Positions 1 through 22,211 of a stretch of DNA of 22,289 bases are shown piece after piece. Source of the stretch: a virus. Below the pieces are notes generated by a model. That model searched no databases. It was given only the letters and a program-made list of their open reading frames with translations, and was not told the origin of the DNA. Positions within the stretch are counted from its first letter, which is position 1, and every line of letters starts with the position of its first letter. The DNA is taken from IMG/VR virus record IMGVR_UViG_3300028840_002428, positions 1 to 22,289 of that record; one strand, 5' to 3'. Both the position numbers and the translations under genes were made by a program.

Positions 1-2217
1 TATGCCAACGTCCTTCGCCACGTAGATGTCGCCGTGGTCAAAGATGCGCATCCGCTCTTGTTCGGTTCCCGAACCAACATTGCACGTGTAGAATATTAGC
101 TCTCCCGATGTGTTATCCGGCGCGCCCCAAATGGCATTGCTTTCCCCGACAATCTTCGCGCCCACGCCCTCGTCGTCATCCGTCCCCGCAAAGTAGATTG
201 TACCTAAGGTTTCTCCATTCCCAATAAACGCATCGATGCGTGACAGCCCCAGCTCGCCGCCACTAGAAACCCCGATGTCCAAATCATATTGCGGCGTATT
301 GTCCTGGATGCCCATATTGCCAGCGAAATATGCGCCGCCATTGCTGTTGATCGTCGCCACGTATGCGGGCGTCGAATTCATAACAACAAAAGACCGCGCG
401 CCTGCGGCATCTGATAACTTTACCGCTGGATCGCCGCCCTTCGATTCGATCAACAAGCCGTTTGTATCGTCGTAGATATACGCCCCCGTCGCGCCGCCGA
501 TCTCGATTCCCTTCGCCTGTGTCACCGCCGCCGTCAAATCAACGCCGTTGTCAATATCCACGTTGCCATCGAATTGCGCGTTGCCATCGCTGTCTGTACT
601 TGCAACGGTCGCGTCGGCGCTATCCAATACGCGGATTTCATTGGTTCCGTCAGCGTTGTTGAGCTTGAGATTAATCCACGAGCCGTAGAGCGTGGGCGTC
701 GAGGAAGAATCATCCACCATAAGCCCCGTGCTCGACTCGTACAGGTCCGCGCCGCCGCCGATTTGGAGACTGCTCGCCTTCGCCGTTGCATTCGGAGTCT
801 GAATCTGGTCTCCACTGAAGGTGAACATCGCGTTTGCTGCCGCATTTTCGATGTTATCATCGCCGCCACCCACGCCCAAACGAATAGAACCCAACACATC
901 CAGCTCTTGCCCCGGAGACGCGATACCAATCCCCACGTCGCCCCGGAAATATGCGTTGCCGTCGCTGTCAATGGTCGCTTCTGTTTGCGGCGTGCCCGCA
1001 TTATCCGTGATGCGAAATTCTTTCGCGCCCGACGCATCGCCAAGCTGCACAATGACTTCGCCGTCGGAATCGACCGTGAGCGTATCGTCTTGAAATGCCA
1101 ACGGAACATAGCTGCTTGTCCCGGTATCATACACATACACACGCCAATCGCCTTCGGCGTCCTGGCGAATGCGGAAGTGCTCATCGCCATCGCCCGCGAT
1201 GTCCAACAAATCGGAGCCTGCGGAACCCGAGATGCCTAGCGCGGTAATGTCAAGTCCGCCATCGGAATCAATGGCCGCGACTTTGTTATCGCCGCCGTCT
1301 AGCACCTGCATTTCGTTCGATCCTGCTTGATCGCCAAGCTTGATTTGCACATCCAGGCCAGTGATGTTCGGCGTGCCGAGTGAATTATCCACTAATAGCC
1401 CCGTGCCCGATTCATGCAGAGACGCCCCTCCACCAATTTCCAACGCAGTAGCCGCGCCGGTAGCATTCGGGAGTTGCAACAATCCGCCATTGAACGTTAT
1501 CATAGCGGTGCCCGCACTGTTTTCAATGCTATTGTTCGAGCTGCCGTCGCCCAACCGCACGCTGCCATTTACATCCAACGCGGCGCCAGGCGTGCCTTCT
1601 TTGACTCCAACGTTGGAAGCAAAATACGCTTGGCCGTCGGAGTCTATGTCAACGACAGTGGAACCGCCCGAGTCTTTGAGTATCCATTTATAGGTTCCTC
1701 CTTGGTCCCCAAGCTTTACAACAACATCGTCGCCCCAAATTTCTGGCGTTGCCCCGCTATCATTCCAGACAATTCCCGTGCTTGGATTGTATAGTTCTCC
1801 CGTGCCAACCCCAAACGTCAACCCTTGGTTGCTCGCCGTCGCATTCGGCAAATTGACTTGCGCTCCAGGGATGTAGATCAACGCGGTTCCAGCCGCATTC
1901 TTGATGTTCGCGTCGGTCAACCCATCTCCTATAACCACGCTTCCAAAGACATCCAGTGTGTCTGTTGGCGATGCTAGTTTGATTCCGACGCGGGAATTGG
2001 CTTCATCCACATATAACGTGTCCCCCGCATTCAACGTGCCGGTGAAATCGAACTTTATCCCGTTCGAGGAATAAAAAACAAGTCCATCCGTCACATGTGT
2101 ATCCATGTAATGCGTGAGGTCATCGACATTCACGCGCGGCGCTATGGTTTGTAGCGTCGCCCCATGCGCCATGGGCGCAATAGCCAGTATGATCAGCGCT
2201 ACAAGTAACCGTCTCAT
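1..2217 (-). CDS. Modular tail fibre with signal peptide (partial, runs off left edge)
   Basis: The reading frame is open from the ATG at 2217 to the first base, giving 739 codons without a stop, so the C-terminus lies outside the window. Residues 1-19 form a typical Sec signal peptide: two arginines, a hydrophobic core (LLVALIILAIA) and a likely cleavage after AHG. The rest is low-charge, Gly/Asp/Asn-rich beta-repeat sequence with motifs of the type VGIGxASPGxxLDVxGSxRLG and DSDGNAYF. These are common in fibres that end in an intramolecular chaperone (Peptidase S74 type). Three modules of about 125 residues repeat at 77-202, 203-327 and 428-552. The start has a good ribosome binding site (GAGGAAAGG, 8 bases upstream) and overlaps the preceding stop as ATGA. 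The inferred role is a host-recognition fibre, but a signal peptide is unusual for that. A host-type surface protein captured into the operon is an alternative. Confidence 0.8.
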   Translation of the reverse strand, partial: MRRLLVALIILAIAPMAHGATLQTIAPRVNVDDLTHYMDTHVTDGLVFYSSNGIKFDFTGTLNAGDTLYVDEANSRVGIKLASPTDTLDVFGSVVIGDGLTDANIKNAAGTALIYIPGAQVNLPNATASNQGLTFGVGTGELYNPSTGIVWNDSGATPEIWGDDVVVKLGDQGGTYKWILKDSGGSTVVDIDSDGQAYFASNVGVKEGTPGAALDVNGSVRLGDGSSNNSIENSAGTAMITFNGGLLQLPNATGAATALEIGGGASLHESGTGLLVDNSLGTPNITGLDVQIKLGDQAGSNEMQVLDGGDNKVAAIDSDGGLDITALGISGSAGSDLLDIAGDGDEHFRIRQDAEGDWRVYVYDTGTSSYVPLAFQDDTLTVDSDGEVIVQLGDASGAKEFRITDNAGTPQTEATIDSDGNAYFRGDVGIGIASPGQELDVLGSIRLGVGGGDDNIENAAANAMFTFSGDQIQTPNATAKASSLQIGGGADLYESSTGLMVDDSSSTPTLYGSWINLKLNNADGTNEIRVLDSADATVASTDSDGNAQFDGNVDIDNGVDLTAAVTQAKGIEIGGATGAYIYDDTNGLLIESKGGDPAVKLSDAAGARSFVVMNSTPAYVATINSNGGAYFAGNMGIQDNTPQYDLDIGVSSGGELGLSRIDAFIGNGETLGTIYFAGTDDDEGVGAKIVGESNAIWGAPDNTSGELIFYTCNVGSGTEQERMRIFDHGDIYVAKDVGI
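562..936 (-). repeat. Fibre module 3 of 3
   Basis: This module encodes fibre residues 428-552. It repeats the landmarks of module 2: ELDVLGSIRLG, NIENAAANAMFTF, IQTPNATA, QIGGGADLYESSTGLMVDD, LKLNNADGTNEIRVLD and TDSDGNAQFDGN. It is separated from module 2 by about 100 residues. That spacer holds a short extra LGDASGAKEFRI...DSDGNAYFRGD element. Confidence 0.75.
1237..1611 (-). repeat. Fibre module 2 of 3
   Basis: This module encodes fibre residues 203-327. The landmarks in order are ALDVNGSVRLGDG, SIENSAGTAMITF, LQLPNATG, EIGGGASLHESGTGLLVD, IKLGDQAGSNEMQVLD and AIDSDGGLDIT. It directly abuts module 1. Modules 2 and 3 are the more similar pair. Confidence 0.75.
1612..1989 (-). repeat. Fibre module 1 of 3
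   Basis: This module encodes fibre residues 77-202. It opens with VGIKLASPTDTLDVFGSV, then has NLPNATAS, a TGIVWNDS element and a DIDSDGQAYFASN close. It matches the next module and the one at 562-936 in motif order. It is the most diverged copy, because its middle lacks the IGGGA-LxES element. Confidence 0.7.
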
Positions 2218-2540
2218 TTTAGCTGCCTTTCCTCTTCAGGCCGGAGCCCAAAAAAACTGGATTCTTGCGCATATATGCGCAACCAGAAAAGAAACGATGG
2301 CGCATCAAGACCAGACATCGCTTGCGCCTCATCCAGACGATCCAACACATCATGAAAGCGCCGCTTTTCACTCTCTTTGATTGCGCTGTCAATGTCACGC
2401 GATACGCGAACAAAAGCACCCAGCAGACGCCCACGCACCTTCGGCCCTTTTGCGCGCTGTTCGAATGTAGCATAGTCGAAAGCTTCTTTCCCTTTAAAGA
2501 TGCTTATTTGTGCGGTCTGTGCTTTTCTCGCGTGCATCAT
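2214..2540 (-). CDS. Small soluble protein of unknown function before the fibre
   Basis: This 108-residue protein is not recognised. It is charged and looks alpha-helical, with no signal peptide or membrane segment. The N-terminus has a short QISIFKGKEAFDY stretch. Residues of about 35-85 are rich in Arg, Lys, Asp and Glu with heptad-like spacing, and could be a helix pair. It starts 6 bases after the stop of the giant tail-tip gene, with GAGG just upstream of two consecutive ATGs at 2540 and 2537. It ends in an ATGA overlap with the fibre gene. Tight coupling to the fibre suggests an assembly, attachment or chaperone role, but that is inference from position only. Confidence 0.7.
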   Translation of the reverse strand: MMHARKAQTAQISIFKGKEAFDYATFEQRAKGPKVRGRLLGAFVRVSRDIDSAIKESEKRRFHDVLDRLDEAQAMSGLDAPSFLFWLRIYAQESSFFGLRPEEERQLK

Positions 2541-12355: not shown

Positions 12356-12772
12356 TCAATAATAATGGACCCAACGCCCCCGCCAGACGCATTGCCAACC
12401 ATAGCCGGACGGGGCGGCCACGGCGCGCTGTATTGGGCCGCTCTCGAAATCCACAAGGCGCATATTGGTGAACGAGCCGACGGAAAACGTCAGGGTTGCA
12501 ATCACATACGTGATGCGCGCCGTATCAATCGAGGCGATCAGTGTTTTCAGCGTTCCCTCGGAAGACGCACACAGGCGATTTCGGAAGATGCCTTCCTCGG
12601 CAAACACGAACTGCTTGCTATCCTCTTCGGTTTGACGCGTGCCCAAGACCATGTAATCGCGCCCCGAACAATGCGGATATACAATATCCTTCACTTCCCC
12701 GTCTTGGGCGTTGCGCCCGGCGAGATGATGCCATTCGCCAAATGTCACGCCACCCCAGCTGAGCGCGGTCAT
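12356..12772 (-). CDS. Small tail-tip candidate (lambda M slot)
   Basis: This 138-residue protein is not recognised. It is beta-rich with a mixed hydrophobic core, including VTFGEWHHLAG near the start and ITYVIATLTFSVGSF at about 85-105. The start ATG overlaps the preceding stop as ATGA, indicating translational coupling to the signal-peptide gene. It falls in the slot after the tape measure where lambda-like genomes encode gpM, a small tail-tip initiator protein. Length is similar to gpM (about 110 residues), but no sequence signature was seen that secures the assignment. Confidence 0.6.
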   Translation of the reverse strand: MTALSWGGVTFGEWHHLAGRNAQDGEVKDIVYPHCSGRDYMVLGTRQTEEDSKQFVFAEEGIFRNRLCASSEGTLKTLIASIDTARITYVIATLTFSVGSFTNMRLVDFESGPIQRAVAAPSGYGWQCVWRGRWVHYY

Positions 12773-13209
12773 TTTTCGATTTCCTTTGGCAAGTCCCCAT
12801 TTAGGATGGCAGCCTCTTCTTGCAGTTGCGCGAGCATGCTTTGGAGTTGTGTTTGGCCCTGCGCGTTGATCGTCAATGCGGCCCTGAGCAAGTACGGCTT
12901 GAGATCCGGCAGCTCGTCGTAGATCTTCCCGATGGCCCCGGCGCCATAGCCTTCCTGGGAACGCAGCATCACGCGCGAGCGTAGGAGCAAGTGCATTTCC
13001 GACGGGGCAATCTTTTCATTGGTCACCGCGTCGCAGAGCTCCTTGTCAATGTAGCCCTCGAAAAATTGCGGGTTGTCGCTCGCGTATCGCATGAGCACCA
13101 CCTTCACCGGGTCTGCTGGCACGGTCTCTCGCGGCGCTTGCGACCTTTGCGCTTGGGCCGCCCACAAACAACCCATGATAACTACGACAATCAGCGTTAC
13201 TCGTTTCAT
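12769..13209 (-). CDS. Exported small protein in the tail operon
   Basis: This 146-residue protein opens with a clear export signal: MKR, a hydrophobic core (VTLIVVVIMGCLWAA) and a likely signal-peptidase site after AQA (about residue 20). A cysteine at 14 within VIMGC is a weak lipoprotein alternative, because the residue at -2 is Met rather than a small residue. The mature part is mostly helical. It has a C-terminal stretch (YLLRAALTINAQGQTQLQSMLAQLQ, split as hydrophobic and Gln-rich helices) that may form a coiled coil. The start is well supported by AAAGGGG 8 bases upstream. It lies 21 bases after the tape measure and is coupled to the next gene. A superinfection-exclusion factor or a periplasmic helper for tail or DNA passage are possible roles, both inferred. 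Confidence 0.72.
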   Translation of the reverse strand: MKRVTLIVVVIMGCLWAAQAQRSQAPRETVPADPVKVVLMRYASDNPQFFEGYIDKELCDAVTNEKIAPSEMHLLLRSRVMLRSQEGYGAGAIGKIYDELPDLKPYLLRAALTINAQGQTQLQSMLAQLQEEAAILNGDLPKEIEK

Positions 13210-13230: not shown

Positions 13231-15144
13231 TTACAATCGCGCGCCCTCTTCGATTGGGCCATTGCGAAAGTGCTCATATTTCAGGCGGCGGGAAATCGCT
13301 TCCTCGTGTTGCTCGCGGAGCTCCTCGTTTTTTTTGGCAAGCTCAGTCACGCGCATTTGTCGCCGCAGAGATTCCTCTTGCGCTTGGAGTTGGTCGGCGC
13401 GTTCCATTGCCCCTTGTCGCGCAATATGCCCCTCTGGGAACTCAGCGGCGTGGCCCTCGAAATACTCAACGCCCATTGATAACCGATTCGCGCGGCGTTG
13501 CAACCCCAACATGCGCTCATCGGCCACGGTCGCCCGATACTCCTCGGCGGTCATGGGTGGACGCTCTTGCGCGGTGGCCGGGAGCGCTGGCATTGCTCGC
13601 GGTTGACTGCGCCGTACGTAGTCCTTCGTTGCCTGCAAATGCTCCGGACTCATCATGGCCCAAGACCAGAGGCCCTCGCGCTCGGCCTTGGGAAATGCTG
13701 ATCCCCGCAAGCTCTTGGCCAGTTCCGACCGGCCCAAAAATTTTTGCGCCGCGCCCTCGCCCTCAAAGACGAGCTTCCGCATGTAGCCGATTTCTTGCGG
13801 GCTTTTGCCTGCCTTGCGCATATCGGTTGCCATTCGACGGAAGCCCTTTTTCCATGATGCGCCTTGCGCTCCGGCTTCCAAATCGACGCCCGCGGCTTTC
13901 GCCATCGCCTGTATGGAATCCGGGATCGCCGCCATTGCGATCTTGTTCATTGCGTCATTTGGGATGATGTTTTCCGATAACGCGAAAATTTCCGCAAGCC
14001 ACTTTGGCGCTCCCGCCTCGCGGTATCGACCCACAGCCAACTGATGACGCACGTCTTGTTGGCTTATGCCACGCAATCCCATTTCTTGTTCGATGGGGAT
14101 GTTCGTTTGCCACTGCTGAATCGACTTGCGCAACTCGGCGAACCCGTAAGCAGCATCTTTCAACCGTTGGCTGAGCTTTTGGCCTACTGCGTCCTCTGCC
14201 GTCTCGCCAATGCGCCGCACGGCATCCTCAACTTGGTCTACGTTCTGAGTAAGCGATTGTGCAGCCGCAACGGCTTCTGCCCCAAAAATCTCTTGGATTG
14301 TCGAGGCGTCTAAACTTGAAAGGTCTCGCAACTGATCAAGCAAGCTCCCGCGCGTCGTGTAACCTTCTTCGATGGCTTTGTCCATGCGCAAAATGACGTT
14401 GCGCACCCCTGTGAATGTCCGCTCACTCCGGCCCCCGCGTTGCGTTGCCACGACCAATGCGCCGCCCAGCTCGTCGAGGGAATGCCCCAACGGTTCGGCA
14501 ACGGCGGCCACGTCCGGCAGCAAACGCGCGAGATCTTCGAATGTCAAAAAGCCTAGCTCGGCGGTCCGATTGATTTTGGCCTGCGCTTCCGAAACACTGT
14601 CCAACGTCTTCCCATAAATCAGATACGTCTTGAGCAGTGCCTTCACGCTCAGCGGCAACTCTGTTCCGGTAAGGCGTGTCAACTCGATTGCGCTCGACAA
14701 AACGTCTTTTTGAATGGCTTCGCTCAAATGTGACGCACCAGACTGGATGGAGAACAGAGCGTCCGCAATTTCCTTGCGCGTGATTCCAAAGGCATTGGCC
14801 AGCTCGAGCACTTCGTCTTTCTTGCTGGCAATCTTTGATAGGTTGTCGCCCAGCGACAGGAGCCCGGTCATCTCGCTTTCGAATTTGGAAGACTCCTCGC
14901 GCAGGCGCTTGTACTCCTCGACGGTCGCGCGGACGGCAGCGCTCACTCCAGCCGCGCCAACGAAGCCGCCTGCCAACGTCATGGCTGTGCGCTTCATGCC
15001 GCCAAGCGTTCGGTCGAAACGCCGTGCCTGACGGATCTGACCACGGAATGCCGTCTCGCTTTTTTTCTGCGTGGCAATGAGACGACGGAAACCCTGAACG
15101 GCTTTCGCTTCCTCGGAATCTAAAACGAATGTTACGTTTCCCAT
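13231..15144 (-). CDS. Tail tape measure protein, TP901 family
   Basis: This 637-residue protein sets tail length and forms the core of the tail tube, and it is ejected during infection. An N-terminal segment with alternating coiled-coil and a short hydrophobic stretch (about residues 53-71, AMTLAGGFVGAAGVSAAVR) is followed by the conserved TP901-type region. That region covers about residues 75-280 and is recognisable from the AFGITRKEIADALFSIQSGA and ELGFLTFEDLARLLPDVAA patterns. The C-terminal third is Arg/Glu-rich and helical (RRQMRVTELAKKNEELREQ). Using the usual 0.15 nm per residue gives a tail near 95 nm, a short-to-middling siphophage tail. The only ribosome binding site is a weak GAG, consistent with coupling to the preceding mini-gene. 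Confidence 0.85.
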   Translation of the reverse strand: MGNVTFVLDSEEAKAVQGFRRLIATQKKSETAFRGQIRQARRFDRTLGGMKRTAMTLAGGFVGAAGVSAAVRATVEEYKRLREESSKFESEMTGLLSLGDNLSKIASKKDEVLELANAFGITRKEIADALFSIQSGASHLSEAIQKDVLSSAIELTRLTGTELPLSVKALLKTYLIYGKTLDSVSEAQAKINRTAELGFLTFEDLARLLPDVAAVAEPLGHSLDELGGALVVATQRGGRSERTFTGVRNVILRMDKAIEEGYTTRGSLLDQLRDLSSLDASTIQEIFGAEAVAAAQSLTQNVDQVEDAVRRIGETAEDAVGQKLSQRLKDAAYGFAELRKSIQQWQTNIPIEQEMGLRGISQQDVRHQLAVGRYREAGAPKWLAEIFALSENIIPNDAMNKIAMAAIPDSIQAMAKAAGVDLEAGAQGASWKKGFRRMATDMRKAGKSPQEIGYMRKLVFEGEGAAQKFLGRSELAKSLRGSAFPKAEREGLWSWAMMSPEHLQATKDYVRRSQPRAMPALPATAQERPPMTAEEYRATVADERMLGLQRRANRLSMGVEYFEGHAAEFPEGHIARQGAMERADQLQAQEESLRRQMRVTELAKKNEELREQHEEAISRRLKYEHFRNGPIEEGARL

Positions 15145-18210: not shown

Positions 18211-18588
18211 TCAACCTCGATGGTTCACAAACATGTCTTGGCGGCCTTTGAACTCGGCGTCGAACTTCTGCACTTGTAAAAGCGCCAAGCCTTCGTTGTC
18301 GTCGGCCTCGACTTCCACGACTGACCAGTCCGCCGCGTCGAATGTTACAACGTCCTTGCGTGCCGGGGTGGCGATGCCTTCCGTGGCATCCGTTGAAACC
18401 ATTACATCAGCCTGAGTAAGTTCGCCGACGCCTTCCGCGCAGACGTTTTCGCGCTGGGGTTGGCGATCAACAATCGCGGTGATGGATTTCAACGCGCCGC
18501 CATCGGGCGTATAACTCACCGTCTCGCCAAGCCCATCCAGCAACATGGCGCGCCCCGATTCCTCAAAAGCGTCGGCAAACCAACTCAT
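18211..18588 (-). CDS. FII-like head-tail joining protein
   Basis: The 125-residue protein has a short helical N-terminus (FADAFEESGRAMLLDGLGE) followed by a small beta-barrel pattern. The barrel segments are ITAIVDRQPQRE, VMVSTDATEGIATPARKDVVTFD and DWSVVEVEADDNEGLALLQVQ. The order 'strand, data-frame strand, RKDVVTF strand, DWSVxxV strand' resembles lambda FII and related head-completion proteins, and length agrees (FII is 117 residues). FII seals the portal after DNA packaging and provides the tail docking site. The ATG follows the previous TAA directly (TAAATG) with AGGA inside the preceding gene. Confidence 0.65.
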   Translation of the reverse strand: MSWFADAFEESGRAMLLDGLGETVSYTPDGGALKSITAIVDRQPQRENVCAEGVGELTQADVMVSTDATEGIATPARKDVVTFDAADWSVVEVEADDNEGLALLQVQKFDAEFKGRQDMFVNHRG

Positions 18589-19359
18589 TTAGTCCTGCCA
18601 GACTTGCACGCGCAGCGTGGTTGTCATAGTTGTGGGCCCGTCTAGGTAGACAGTCACGGCATCGGTGCTGGGCACAATGCTTGTTATGCTCCGGCCTTGC
18701 CCCGATGTAACAATCGAAGCGAACGGGTAATCGTCGGAATCCGTGCCGCTCACGGTAATTGCCACGCTCGATGTATTGGTTGTCACGTCATCCGTGGCGA
18801 ACACGAGCGTTTTTCCCGAGGCGATAAGCGTGGTCGCGGTGCAGGTCGTGAACGTGCCGGCCGCTGGCGTTGTGTCGCCAATTGTGGCCCCGTCAATGTT
18901 CCCTCCATCAATATCAGCAAGCACAGCGCCCAAAGACGTAAAATCGCCAGCGGCGGGCGTTGTGCCCCCGATGGTAACACTATCCGCTGTGCCACCGTTG
19001 ATATCCGCTGTGGTTGCGGTGAGGGAGCTAAACGTGCCAGCAGCAGCGGACGAACCACCAATGGTTGTTCCGTCAATGGCCCCGCCATCCAGATTTACCG
19101 TTGTTCCCGTTAGCGTGGTAAACGTGCCGGCCGCTGGGGTCGTTCCACCAATCACGGTTCCGTCAATCGTGCCGCCGTCAATGTCCACGGTTGCAAGCGT
19201 CGAGCCCGATGGCAACGTCGCGCTATCGTTTACCGTAAGACTGGAAACGCGCAAATTCACGAACGACCCGTTCTGGGTTTCGTAGTACGCGCCCAAACAG
19301 ATCGCGACACCAAGAGCCAACCACGCAAGCGGCAACAGGTTTCGGCCTTTGTATTTCAT
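18589..19359 (-). CDS. Membrane-segment protein with 4 x 30-residue repeats next to the capsid gene
   Basis: The ATG at 19359 (256 residues) is preferred over an ATG at 19392, because AAAGGA lies 10 bases upstream of it and the N-terminus then begins with a basic, hydrophobic export signal. That segment is MKYKGRN followed by LLPLAWLALGVAICLGAYY, either a signal anchor or an uncleaved signal. Residues 57-176 are four exact 30-residue repeats built on DGGxIDGTxIGGTTPAAGTFTTL. The C-terminus is Thr/Ser/Asp-rich and beta-like (FATDDVTTNTSSVAITVSG). The repeat type is common in phage fibres and in head fibres, so a head fibre is one option. The export signal, however, suggests the product can reach the membrane or periplasm. 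It is placed between the capsid and head-tail joining genes, which is an odd slot for an exported protein. Confidence 0.72.
   Translation of the reverse strand: MKYKGRNLLPLAWLALGVAICLGAYYETQNGSFVNLRVSSLTVNDSATLPSGSTLATVDIDGGTIDGTVIGGTTPAAGTFTTLTGTTVNLDGGAIDGTTIGGSSAAAGTFSSLTATTADINGGTADSVTIGGTTPAAGDFTSLGAVLADIDGGNIDGATIGDTTPAAGTFTTCTATTLIASGKTLVFATDDVTTNTSSVAITVSGTDSDDYPFASIVTSGQGRSITSIVPSTDAVTVYLDGPTTMTTTLRVQVWQD
18832..19191 (-). repeat. Four tandem 90-base repeats (30 aa each)
   Basis: The array codes for residues 57-86, 87-116, 117-146 and 147-176 of the repeat protein, with no length change between units. DNA similarity between units is visible, for example shared GTGCCGGCCGCTGG-type strings near 18855 and 19116 on the plus strand. 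That may allow copy-number change by recombination or slippage. Confidence 0.8.
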
Positions 19360-19395
19360 CGTTTCAAAGTCCTTTCCGGGGCATTGCCCCATGGC

Positions 19396-20355
19396 TTACG
19401 TGGTGATGTTGTCAAGCAACTGCAAGCACTCGGTGAACAGGATTTTTTCGTCCGTGTCCATGCGCGCGCGGATGATGTCCGACCGAACCGTTTCGTCGCG
19501 GTAGCTTTCCATCGTTGCGCCGATAGACGAACCATCTTGTCCCCAATGGAACATGCGCCCGAGTCCCGGCTCTCGAATGTCATTTGACGTGCAGATCCGG
19601 GCAACCGCCGCGTATTCATCCGACCAAATCGGGGAAATGCTCACGCTCTGCTCGCTGTTTGCCGTGTTCTTCGCGCTTCCCGCAACGATGATGTATGGTA
19701 GGTCGAAAGCATCCTGGAGCTCCGCAATCCCGATTTCCGCAGGCAGCACTGACTTTACAGCTTTCACTTTGTCAATGATTTCCGAGCACCGTCGCACGTT
19801 GAGAAACACTCGGCGGTTGACGATGAGCGCATTGGCCCAAAGACCGGTTGCGTCCCATAGCGCCTTGACCCTGGCGGCAACGTCCGTAATCGGCGTTGCG
19901 GCGGTCACGTCATCCCATTCATTCGTAACACTGGTCGGCGTCCATGTTGACGCGTTGAACACCATGTCCGCCACGCGCTTTTCCATATTGCGCAACACAA
20001 CATCGCGGGCACGTTGCGCGGAGACCAGCTCTGCGTCGAAGAAGTCTACGTAGAGGTCGGCTTCCCGATCATCCACGGGCTCCTCGGCGCCATGCTCCTC
20101 GGTCGCGTAGCTGTCGGTTGTGAAGTCCCAGTGCGACCGAGCGTAACCCGTGCCGGGCGCACGTCGCGTTTCGCGGTTCTCCAGCAATTGTTCGATGGGG
20201 ATTTTCCCAAAGATTCCGCTCGACTTGGCAACCTCGATGACCGGCAACACCTGGGGTGCAATAAAGCCCGCGCGGTCGGCGGCCAAATCGAACTCTTCCA
20301 AACTCCCGGCCAACTCGGGCCGCAGAGTCGAGAGGCTTGATGTTGGGTGAGGCAT
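19396..20355 (-). CDS. Major capsid protein (HK97 fold)
   Basis: The 319-residue protein forms the capsid shell. The ATG at 20355 is chosen over a GTG at 20364, because AAAGGAG lies 8 bases upstream of the ATG but directly touches the GTG. The landmarks agree with the lambda E / HK97-like class. They are an N-arm with EEFDLAADRAGFIAP, a spine-like region around VLRNMEKRVADMVFNA, and VNRRVFLNVRR in the P domain. Further on come VKSVLPAEIGIAEL and PYIIVAGSAKNTANSE, and a C-terminal VRSDIIRARMDTDEKIL segment. There is no N-terminal scaffold domain of HK97 type, which agrees with a separate scaffold upstream. The ribosome binding site lies in a short hairpin loop (see separate entry). Confidence 0.88.
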   Translation of the reverse strand: MPHPTSSLSTLRPELAGSLEEFDLAADRAGFIAPQVLPVIEVAKSSGIFGKIPIEQLLENRETRRAPGTGYARSHWDFTTDSYATEEHGAEEPVDDREADLYVDFFDAELVSAQRARDVVLRNMEKRVADMVFNASTWTPTSVTNEWDDVTAATPITDVAARVKALWDATGLWANALIVNRRVFLNVRRCSEIIDKVKAVKSVLPAEIGIAELQDAFDLPYIIVAGSAKNTANSEQSVSISPIWSDEYAAVARICTSNDIREPGLGRMFHWGQDGSSIGATMESYRDETVRSDIIRARMDTDEKILFTECLQLLDNITT

Positions 20356-20360
20356 CGGTT

Positions 20361-20375
20361 TCACTCCTTTAGTGA
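20361..20375 (-). promoter_or_regulatory. Hairpin carrying the capsid gene ribosome binding site in its loop
   Basis: The coding strand reads TCACT AAAGG AGTGA, a 5-base stem with the AAAGG of the Shine-Dalgarno in the loop, 8 bases before the ATG at 20355. No U-run follows, so it is not a terminator. It could present the ribosome binding site for high-level capsid translation or serve as an RNA end-protecting structure. The function is inferred. Confidence 0.4.
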
Positions 20376-20855: not shown

Positions 20856-21317
20856 TTAGATCTCGCGTTCCGCGAATGCCAGCGCTCCTTTCCGGTTTCC
20901 TTGGCGCTCATTATAAGCGACCACGTACGCCTTGTGAAGTTCCGGGTCCGCTTTTCGCGCGGCCTTGATGGCATCGGCGTGTCTCTTGCCCTTGGCCAAG
21001 TGCGCCCCAATAGCCGATTCCCAACGATCAATCGCATCGGCGTTGGTCGCCTCTTCCTCATCGCCACCTTCAGACCCCAGCGCGTCAACCCCCGGCTTGG
21101 AGGCCTTCGCCTTGAGCTCCTCGATCTCCTTGGCCTGATGCGCCATCCATGCCCCCTTGGCTTCGTCCGCCGTAGCCTTGCGTTCGAGCTGATCACACAA
21201 GAAGTCGGCGGTCGCCTGTGGGACGGCGGCCTTCAGTTCTTGGTAGGTCGCCGCCACGGGCTCTTGTGACGGTGTTTCCGCAACAATAGCGGTGTCCGCC
21301 GTTGTTTCTGTCGCCAT
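20856..21317 (-). CDS. Nested scaffold protein (in-frame internal start)
   Basis: This start lies inside the protease gene at residue 299. It has an excellent AAAGGAG ribosome binding site 10 bases upstream, and codes for 153 residues starting MATETTADTAIVAE. The product is the charged, helical scaffold region without the protease domain. This is the arrangement of lambda Nu3 within C: the full-length protein gives protease and the internal start gives extra scaffold. The capsid and scaffold would then be made in different ratios from one operon. Confidence 0.65.
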   Translation of the reverse strand: MATETTADTAIVAETPSQEPVAATYQELKAAVPQATADFLCDQLERKATADEAKGAWMAHQAKEIEELKAKASKPGVDALGSEGGDEEEATNADAIDRWESAIGAHLAKGKRHADAIKAARKADPELHKAYVVAYNERQGNRKGALAFAEREI

Positions 21318-22211
21318 TTTTGTCTTGCTCCTTTCTCTGTTTGTTTCCTCTCGCAAATCTTCGAGGACCAATTCAAACGGCTTTATGCCGTCGATCAACC
21401 CTACTTTGATTGCGTCCGCGCCCACGTAAACCCGACCATCCGCCAAGGCTTGCACGACCTGAATGCCCATGCGTCGGCCCCGCGCGACGGCCTCATTGAA
21501 CTGATTGCCCAACTTGTCCACCGTCGCCTGAAATTCCGTCAAATGCTCCTCGGTGACTTCCGTCCCCGGCGTGCCCGCTCCCTTGAATTCGCCGGTCCGC
21601 AAAACGTGGACCTTGATTCCCTCGCTCTCGGCAAACGCGGAAGAATCCTCCACAACCAGAAAAACACCGATGCTGCCGATCAATGCGTTTGCGTTTGCGA
21701 AAACCTTGTTGGCCTGCGATGCGACATAGTAGGCCGCGCTTGCGCCCCGGTCCTCAATGTAGGCGTAGACTGGCTTTTCTTTGGACGCTCGCGCCACGTC
21801 GTCGGCGAGATCGGGAATGCCCGATACCGTCCCGCCAGGCGAATCAATTACAAGCGCAATACCAGCGATGGAATCATCAACAAGCGCATTGCGCACTTGC
21901 CGCCGGGCCCGGACGGTTGAGGCAGCCTCCATCAAGCTAGAGCCATATTTCATGAGCGTACCGCTCAGTTGAATCATGGCGATTCCGCCAGTAAGCACGG
22001 GGTAGCTTATGTCAGTCGCCACTTGGGGCTCGGCAAGTTGCTTGGCGATATGGTCGCCTAAATCGCGCGCTCGAACCGTTGTTGCAAGGGCCTGGAACGT
22101 CGCGGACTCCATCGCCCACGGACCGAAATACTGATCAAGGTGCGAAACGCGCTCGGTGGCCCACCCCGGCGGCTGGATGTCAAACTCAAGCATCGTCGCT
22201 CCCATCGTCAT
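20856..22211 (-). CDS. S49 (SppA-like) head maturation protease with C-terminal scaffold region
   Basis: This 451-residue protein has a ClpP/SppA-type fold in residues of about 70-285. Residue landmarks are ALVIDSPGGTVSG (113-131), a RGASAAYYVAS segment with the nucleophile Ser158, and TGEFKGAGTP with the catalytic Lys210. This Ser-Lys dyad is the S49 arrangement, as in lambda gpC. Residues 290-451 are charged and coiled-coil-like, with many Ala, Glu and Lys, and are a scaffold-type domain cleaved or released during head maturation. A strong internal start at 21317 could produce this scaffold alone. The start is not certain: ATGs at 22211, 22205 and 22193 all lie in frame, and GAGG is spaced best (6 bases) for 22205. 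The 5' end overlaps the portal gene by 26 bases. Confidence 0.87.
   Translation of the reverse strand: MTMGATMLEFDIQPPGWATERVSHLDQYFGPWAMESATFQALATTVRARDLGDHIAKQLAEPQVATDISYPVLTGGIAMIQLSGTLMKYGSSLMEAASTVRARRQVRNALVDDSIAGIALVIDSPGGTVSGIPDLADDVARASKEKPVYAYIEDRGASAAYYVASQANKVFANANALIGSIGVFLVVEDSSAFAESEGIKVHVLRTGEFKGAGTPGTEVTEEHLTEFQATVDKLGNQFNEAVARGRRMGIQVVQALADGRVYVGADAIKVGLIDGIKPFELVLEDLREETNRERSKTKMATETTADTAIVAETPSQEPVAATYQELKAAVPQATADFLCDQLERKATADEAKGAWMAHQAKEIEELKAKASKPGVDALGSEGGDEEEATNADAIDRWESAIGAHLAKGKRHADAIKAARKADPELHKAYVVAYNERQGNRKGALAFAEREI
21328..21334 (-). promoter_or_regulatory. Internal ribosome binding site for nested scaffold
   Basis: The coding strand has AAAGGAG here, 10 bases before the in-frame ATG at 21317. 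It is as good as the sites before independent genes such as the capsid protein, and much better than expected by chance inside a coding region. Confidence 0.6.

Follow-up and report, generated by a model that had tools for sequence, protein, structure and literature searches.

Three genes of one phage virion operon encode proteins whose N-termini have the features of Sec-type export signals, and we regard it as about an even call that these exported, late, operon-coupled and fibre-derived proteins end in the host envelope and not in the particle. That the three proteins are exported at all, as well as their topology and function, we infer from their sequences.

The stretch of DNA analysed (22,289 bases, hereafter the window) matches positions 8987-31275 of IMGVR_UViG_3300017963_002993, a contig of 35,527 bases, without a single difference. 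It holds a single minus-strand operon that begins with the genes for an S49-type prohead protease (20856..22211; PF01343, 8e-38; phrog_53, 1e-65), a cement protein (PF09956) and the major capsid protein (19396..20364; phrog_1005, 6e-38). Further on follow the genes for the head closure protein Hc1 (18211..18588; phrog_82, 2.8e-5), tail proteins, the tail tape measure protein (13231..15144; PF10145, 5e-13), an Ig-like protein of 1,915 aa and a fibre. Viral contigs supplied relatives of the capsid gene in two sets, of 15 and 80. Of 392 genomes of the phylum to which a Pirellulales MAG belongs, 10 contain the capsid family, one of these matches lying on a contig of 6.1 million bases (E = 5e-111); of 297 genomes of the phylum to which an Acidobacteria MAG belongs, 5 contain it, with mostly weaker matches. 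From this distribution across the two phyla, the host of the phage is read as probably, not certainly, a planctomycete.

Three export-type N-termini in a virion operon

A sequence-only reading of the window had claimed three hydrophobic N-termini in one virion operon, each preceded by basic residues and a ribosome binding site, and on all of these points it was borne out. The open reading frames and their hydrophobic stretches lie on the minus strand at 12769..13209 (a 146-aa helical protein), 18589..19359 (a 256-aa repeat protein) and 1..2217 (a fibre-like protein cut at the window edge). The cores are preceded by MKR in the 146-aa protein, MKYKGR in the repeat protein and MRR in the fibre, and a Shine-Dalgarno motif stands before the ATG at all three starts (GAAAGGGGTTAGAGTA-ATG at 13209, GGAAAGGACTTTGAAACG-ATG at 19359 and GAGGAAAGGCAGCTAAA-ATG at 2217). 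An alternative start at 19392, which would lengthen the repeat gene, lacks a Shine-Dalgarno motif, and 19359 is clearly the better of the two.

The signals were called by rules for the n-, h- and c-regions and are thus rule-based readings. For the h-region, the hydropathy was summed over an uncharged core of at least 8 residues starting within the first 20 residues and preceded by positive charge. By this score the 146-aa protein, the repeat protein and the fibre reached 39.4, 37.9 and 40.4, respectively, while 16 of the remaining 17 operon proteins scored 0 and one scored 17.4. With a cut-off of at least 34 for a signal-like N-terminus, 95 of 100,000 composition-matched random N-termini and none of 5,805 internal segments passed; among real genes, the proportion was 3 of 20 in the operon of the window against 7 of 1,422 in 91 relatives (Fisher p = 2.6e-4). 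Chance is excluded as the source of the three signals.

Wrong starts or hydrophobic stretches read out of frame could also produce such N-termini, and exactly this was found in four terminase genes of relatives (G003, 15513; L014, 344; L141, 3357; G004, 17420 on the reverse complement). Their apparent signal peptides were rejected, as the hydrophobic stretch is the '...ALDDA...' helix of the preceding gene read in another frame. The N-termini of the window do not overlie neighbouring reading frames, the overlap of the fibre with its neighbour amounting to 4 bases only, and they come with Shine-Dalgarno motifs, so that an artefact of this kind is already largely refuted and highly improbable. 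In compact phage genomes, the end of a preceding gene read out of frame is a general cause of falsely called signal peptides.

No homologues of the three whole window proteins were found. Elsewhere, a signal-like open reading frame in L119 (13125-13871) was dropped because the gene calls in that region are unclear. A clear signal peptide (MRRAILLLAIAALCFPAVA↓S; arrows mark predicted cleavage sites) was seen on a 151-aa protein encoded between the portal and protease genes of a relative, L015 (1881-2336), and no homologue of this protein was found.

Properties and gene context of the three proteins

The N-terminus of the 146-aa protein, MKRVTLIVVVIMGCLWAAQA↓Q, is composed of the n-region MKR, the h-region VTLIVVVIMGCLWAA and AQA↓Q, and thereby has the basic n-region, the uncharged hydrophobic core and the small residues at -3 and -1 of an SPI signal. 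The cleavage site AQA proposed earlier is present as AQA↓QR, however, there is also a lipobox-like IMGC with Cys14, so that either SPI or SPII may process the protein. Measured against the lipobox criterion used here, [LVI][ASTVI][GAS]C at about residue 15-35, the Met at -2 is unusual and Cys14 falls one residue short of the range. Searches of Pfam, PHROG and NCBIfam gave 0 matches, phage records and viral contigs returned only the protein itself, and homologues occurred in 0 of 294 Planctomycetota genomes. The AF2 model is helical with a pLDDT of 48, too low for a fold search. The product would be a small helical periplasmic protein or a lipoprotein.

The repeat protein consists of an N-terminal anchor (LLPLAWLALGVAICLGAYY), shaft repeats like those of tail fibres (IDGGTIDGTTIGGTTPAAGTFTT) and a C-terminal domain. 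The Sec-type signal proposed for it stands with respect to the n- and h-regions but not the cleavage site: no A-x-A follows the 17-residue core, and on this ground the N-terminus is more likely an uncleaved signal anchor than a cleaved signal. The shaft repeats are shared with the tail fiber protein family phrog_892 (6e-6). Among viral contigs, 409 relatives of the shaft were found, of which 80 were examined as far as their start or the contig end; none of these 80 has a hydrophobic N-terminus, and most open with shared sequences such as MAGYTRQS or MAGYTRQSVADI, presumably serving tail binding. The protein of the window lacks this fibre N-terminus of its relatives and has a membrane anchor in its place, which speaks against it being a part of the tail. 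In comparison, the fibres with IDGxTIGGTTPAAGTFTT repeats (phrog_892, 80 loci) have the same shaft repeats, at most 67% identical in the best segments, but carry non-hydrophobic and mostly shared N-terminal domains, whereas the window protein has the anchor and its gene adjoins the capsid gene. Two alignments to the N-terminus of the repeat protein (L053 and L056) were rejected as they run through stop codons. As a tail-fibre shaft in which an anchor replaces the usual N-terminus, the repeat protein would project from the inner membrane.

Between the capsid and g166 genes, G002, G004, L009, L010 and the prophages G120 and G362 encode a small membrane protein with a coiled-coil tail behind a single membrane span, which recurs at the same place with little sequence similarity. 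The repeat protein may be the window phage's different filling of this slot.

The fibre, truncated by the window edge, has 866 residues on the longer identical contig (G001). Its proposed signal with the site AHG was confirmed: MRR, LLVALIILAIAPMA and AHG↓A make up the N-terminus MRRLLVALIILAIAPMAHG↓A, which has all features of an SPI signal. VGIGxASPGQELDV repeats and a tail-fibre-like C-terminal part follow, and the match to the tail fiber family phrog_9942 (1e-7) is restricted to residues 765-831 of 866. No match to the part within the window was obtained among 50,697 phage records, and a search of viral contigs with the fibre returned only itself. Given its cleavable signal peptide, the fibre would be set free in the periplasm or further outward. 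In G001 its gene is the last tail gene before one that reads by eye as an endolysin gene, for which no family match was found.

Two further genes were noted on the same contig. A 68-aa protein that begins with a coiled coil and has a single membrane span (L018, 2306-2512, minus strand) is a possible holin of the phage. To the left of the window, convergent with the endolysin-like gene, a gene at L018 6344-7249 (plus strand) encodes a 301-aa kelch-repeat protein (PF24681, 2.8e-16) with a fourth export signal, starting MRYTTLLCIAIIALPTSA↓E.

All three genes are tightly packed within the operon. The repeat gene begins 36 bases past the capsid stop and is followed by the Hc1 gene at a gap of 0 bp. 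The 146-aa gene begins 21 bases past the stop of the tape-measure gene and overlaps the next tail gene (12356..12772, minus strand) by 4 bp in an ATGA coupling, and the fibre start overlaps the gene of a 108-aa protein (2214..2540, minus strand) likewise by 4 bp. No promoter- or terminator-like site serving any of the three alone was found beyond chance expectation. The tight gaps together with the lack of an own promoter or terminator indicate late co-expression with the capsid and tail genes, and the gene arrangement leads us to expect that the three proteins are produced late, together with the particle. In this coupling the genes differ from lambda lom and bor, whose expression takes place in the lysogen. 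In relatives, Hc1 comes after the capsid gene and the next tail gene after the tape-measure gene, and neither insert is present: the repeat gene is absent between capsid and Hc1 in L004 and G002, and the 146-aa gene is absent between tape measure and next tail gene in G002, L009, L010 and G362. Their absence between the same neighbours marks both genes as accessory.

Signal-bearing fibres in a second phage group

Signal peptides are rare on fibres of this kind: among 49 with VGIG-type repeats whose start lies on the contig, only that of the window and that of L250 carry one. The latter led to a family, L295-L322, comprising 24 fibres with complete N-termini. A signal peptide is present in all 24. 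Its 12 sequence variants share a basic start followed by a hydrophobic core, and the cleavage site always reads AxA↓Q. The mean identity within the family is 54% over the signal versus 92% over the following 23 residues. Sequence drift combined with a strictly kept pattern indicates that this segment evolves as a cleaved signal peptide does.

The L250 and L295-L322 fibres resemble that of the window in having a signal peptide and VGIGT repeats and in being encoded last among the tail genes, ahead of the lysis genes, and both kinds of fibre match the tail fiber family phrog_9942. In L295-L322 the fibre gene lies between the tail genes and a cassette whose members read as holin, spanin-like and amidase genes. 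The phages concerned are of a Bacteroidota type and form a group separate from the window phage; the likeness between the fibres is confined to the repeats. The two cases are therefore probably independent. The tail gene preceding the L295-L322 fibre resembles that of Cellulophaga phage phi12:1, which in the same slot has an ordinary fibre without a signal, annotated as a tail protein. Given this slot, the signal-bearing fibre of L295-L322 may still be a virion protein.

Probable destination of the putatively exported proteins

The earlier suggestion that some products of the operon may be placed in the host envelope gained support from the exclusion of chance and of an out-of-frame artefact, and from the parallel in L295-L322. 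Its second suggestion, that parts of the virion are recruited from a membrane-anchored pool, found no support, and the repeat protein lacks the fibre N-terminus of its 80 relatives. A different way to keep the three proteins within the particle would be a hydrophobic N-terminus that serves cytoplasmic assembly of head or tail or contact with the membrane at infection. The coupling with capsid and tail genes, the tail-fibre-like repeats and C-terminal part and the ordinary fibre of phi12:1 in the corresponding slot are consistent with virion components of this kind. However, the basic n-regions, the hydrophobic cores and the small residues at -3 and -1 are features of Sec signals, the N-terminus shared by the relatives of the repeat protein is missing from it, and in L295-L322 the segment behaves in evolution as a signal peptide; we therefore consider a place in the virion unlikely, although it is the strongest competitor to a location in the envelope. 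A role in lysis, with the repeat protein and the 146-aa protein as an outer-membrane lipoprotein forming a spanin-like pair or acting as a holin accessory, would fit the single-pass coiled-coil membrane protein that relatives encode near the position of the repeat gene, the IMGC of the 146-aa protein and the position of the fibre gene before the endolysin-like gene in G001, as read from sequence. Yet the repeat protein is built as a fibre shaft, not as a coiled coil, Cys14 lies just outside the usual lipobox range, the two genes are 5 kb apart without overlap, unlike the layout of a two-component spanin, and no PHROG lysis family was matched, which makes this role distinctly unlikely.

The genes might also be lysogenic-conversion morons, expressed from the prophage in the manner of lambda lom and bor. 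The lom gene is located in the late tail region of lambda. That the repeat and 146-aa genes are accessory inserts, that the same phage has another exported-type gene in that of the kelch protein in G001, and that related capsid genes occur in Planctomycetota genomes would agree with this explanation, but as the genes have neither a promoter or terminator of their own nor intergenic space, and are coupled to late genes, expression from a prophage is very unlikely.

Under the reading we prefer, that of envelope proteins, the three products would enter the Sec pathway late in infection. An exclusion or adhesion role, as proposed before, is plausible. The likeliest use would be a late modification of the envelope of the infected cell, in which masking or binding of the receptor used by the phage itself would keep other phages, and progeny already set free, from attaching. 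Purified T5 receptor-binding protein, when added, blocks infection by T5, and the neighbouring lipoprotein Llp has similar phenotypes (PMC9586334); by the same effect, the exported fibre could block the receptor directly. Against masking stands that no route was seen by which a large periplasmic fibre could cross the outer membrane, as it would have to.

The claim that no described system matches the pattern proved too strong, since exported phage proteins beside or within tail genes are known, such as T5 Llp next to pb5 and T1 Cor (PMC9586334, PMC13164509). It holds for the fibre, as no description of a Sec signal on a fibre-like protein or tail fibre was found in the literature searched. Llp of T5 and Cor of T1 and phi80 are small exported proteins, and the gene for Llp adjoins that of the receptor-binding tail protein; the 146-aa protein is similarly small and exported-looking, and its gene belongs to the tail block. 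In contrast to them, it is without a database match, its lipobox is doubtful and its gene does not adjoin the fibre gene; moreover, Llp is early-expressed according to the description in reference 22 of PMC9586334. The lambda proteins Lom and Bor, exported and produced in the lysogen (PMC7067206), are envelope proteins of a tailed phage as read here for the window proteins, but differ in that the window genes have no own promoter and are tied to late genes.

As a tentative and rather doubtful generalisation, more than one lineage of tailed phages may replace the N-terminus of a fibre with a Sec signal or an anchor, yielding a general class of late receptor masks or progeny shields in the envelope. 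Fibre genes are routinely annotated as parts of the particle and used to predict host range, and if some fibres are exported, such predictions would be wrong for these genes. The 24-member L295-L322 family with its strongly kept signal offers a clean test set for exported fibres, and, if the reading is true, a new late alteration of the infected-cell surface would become testable.
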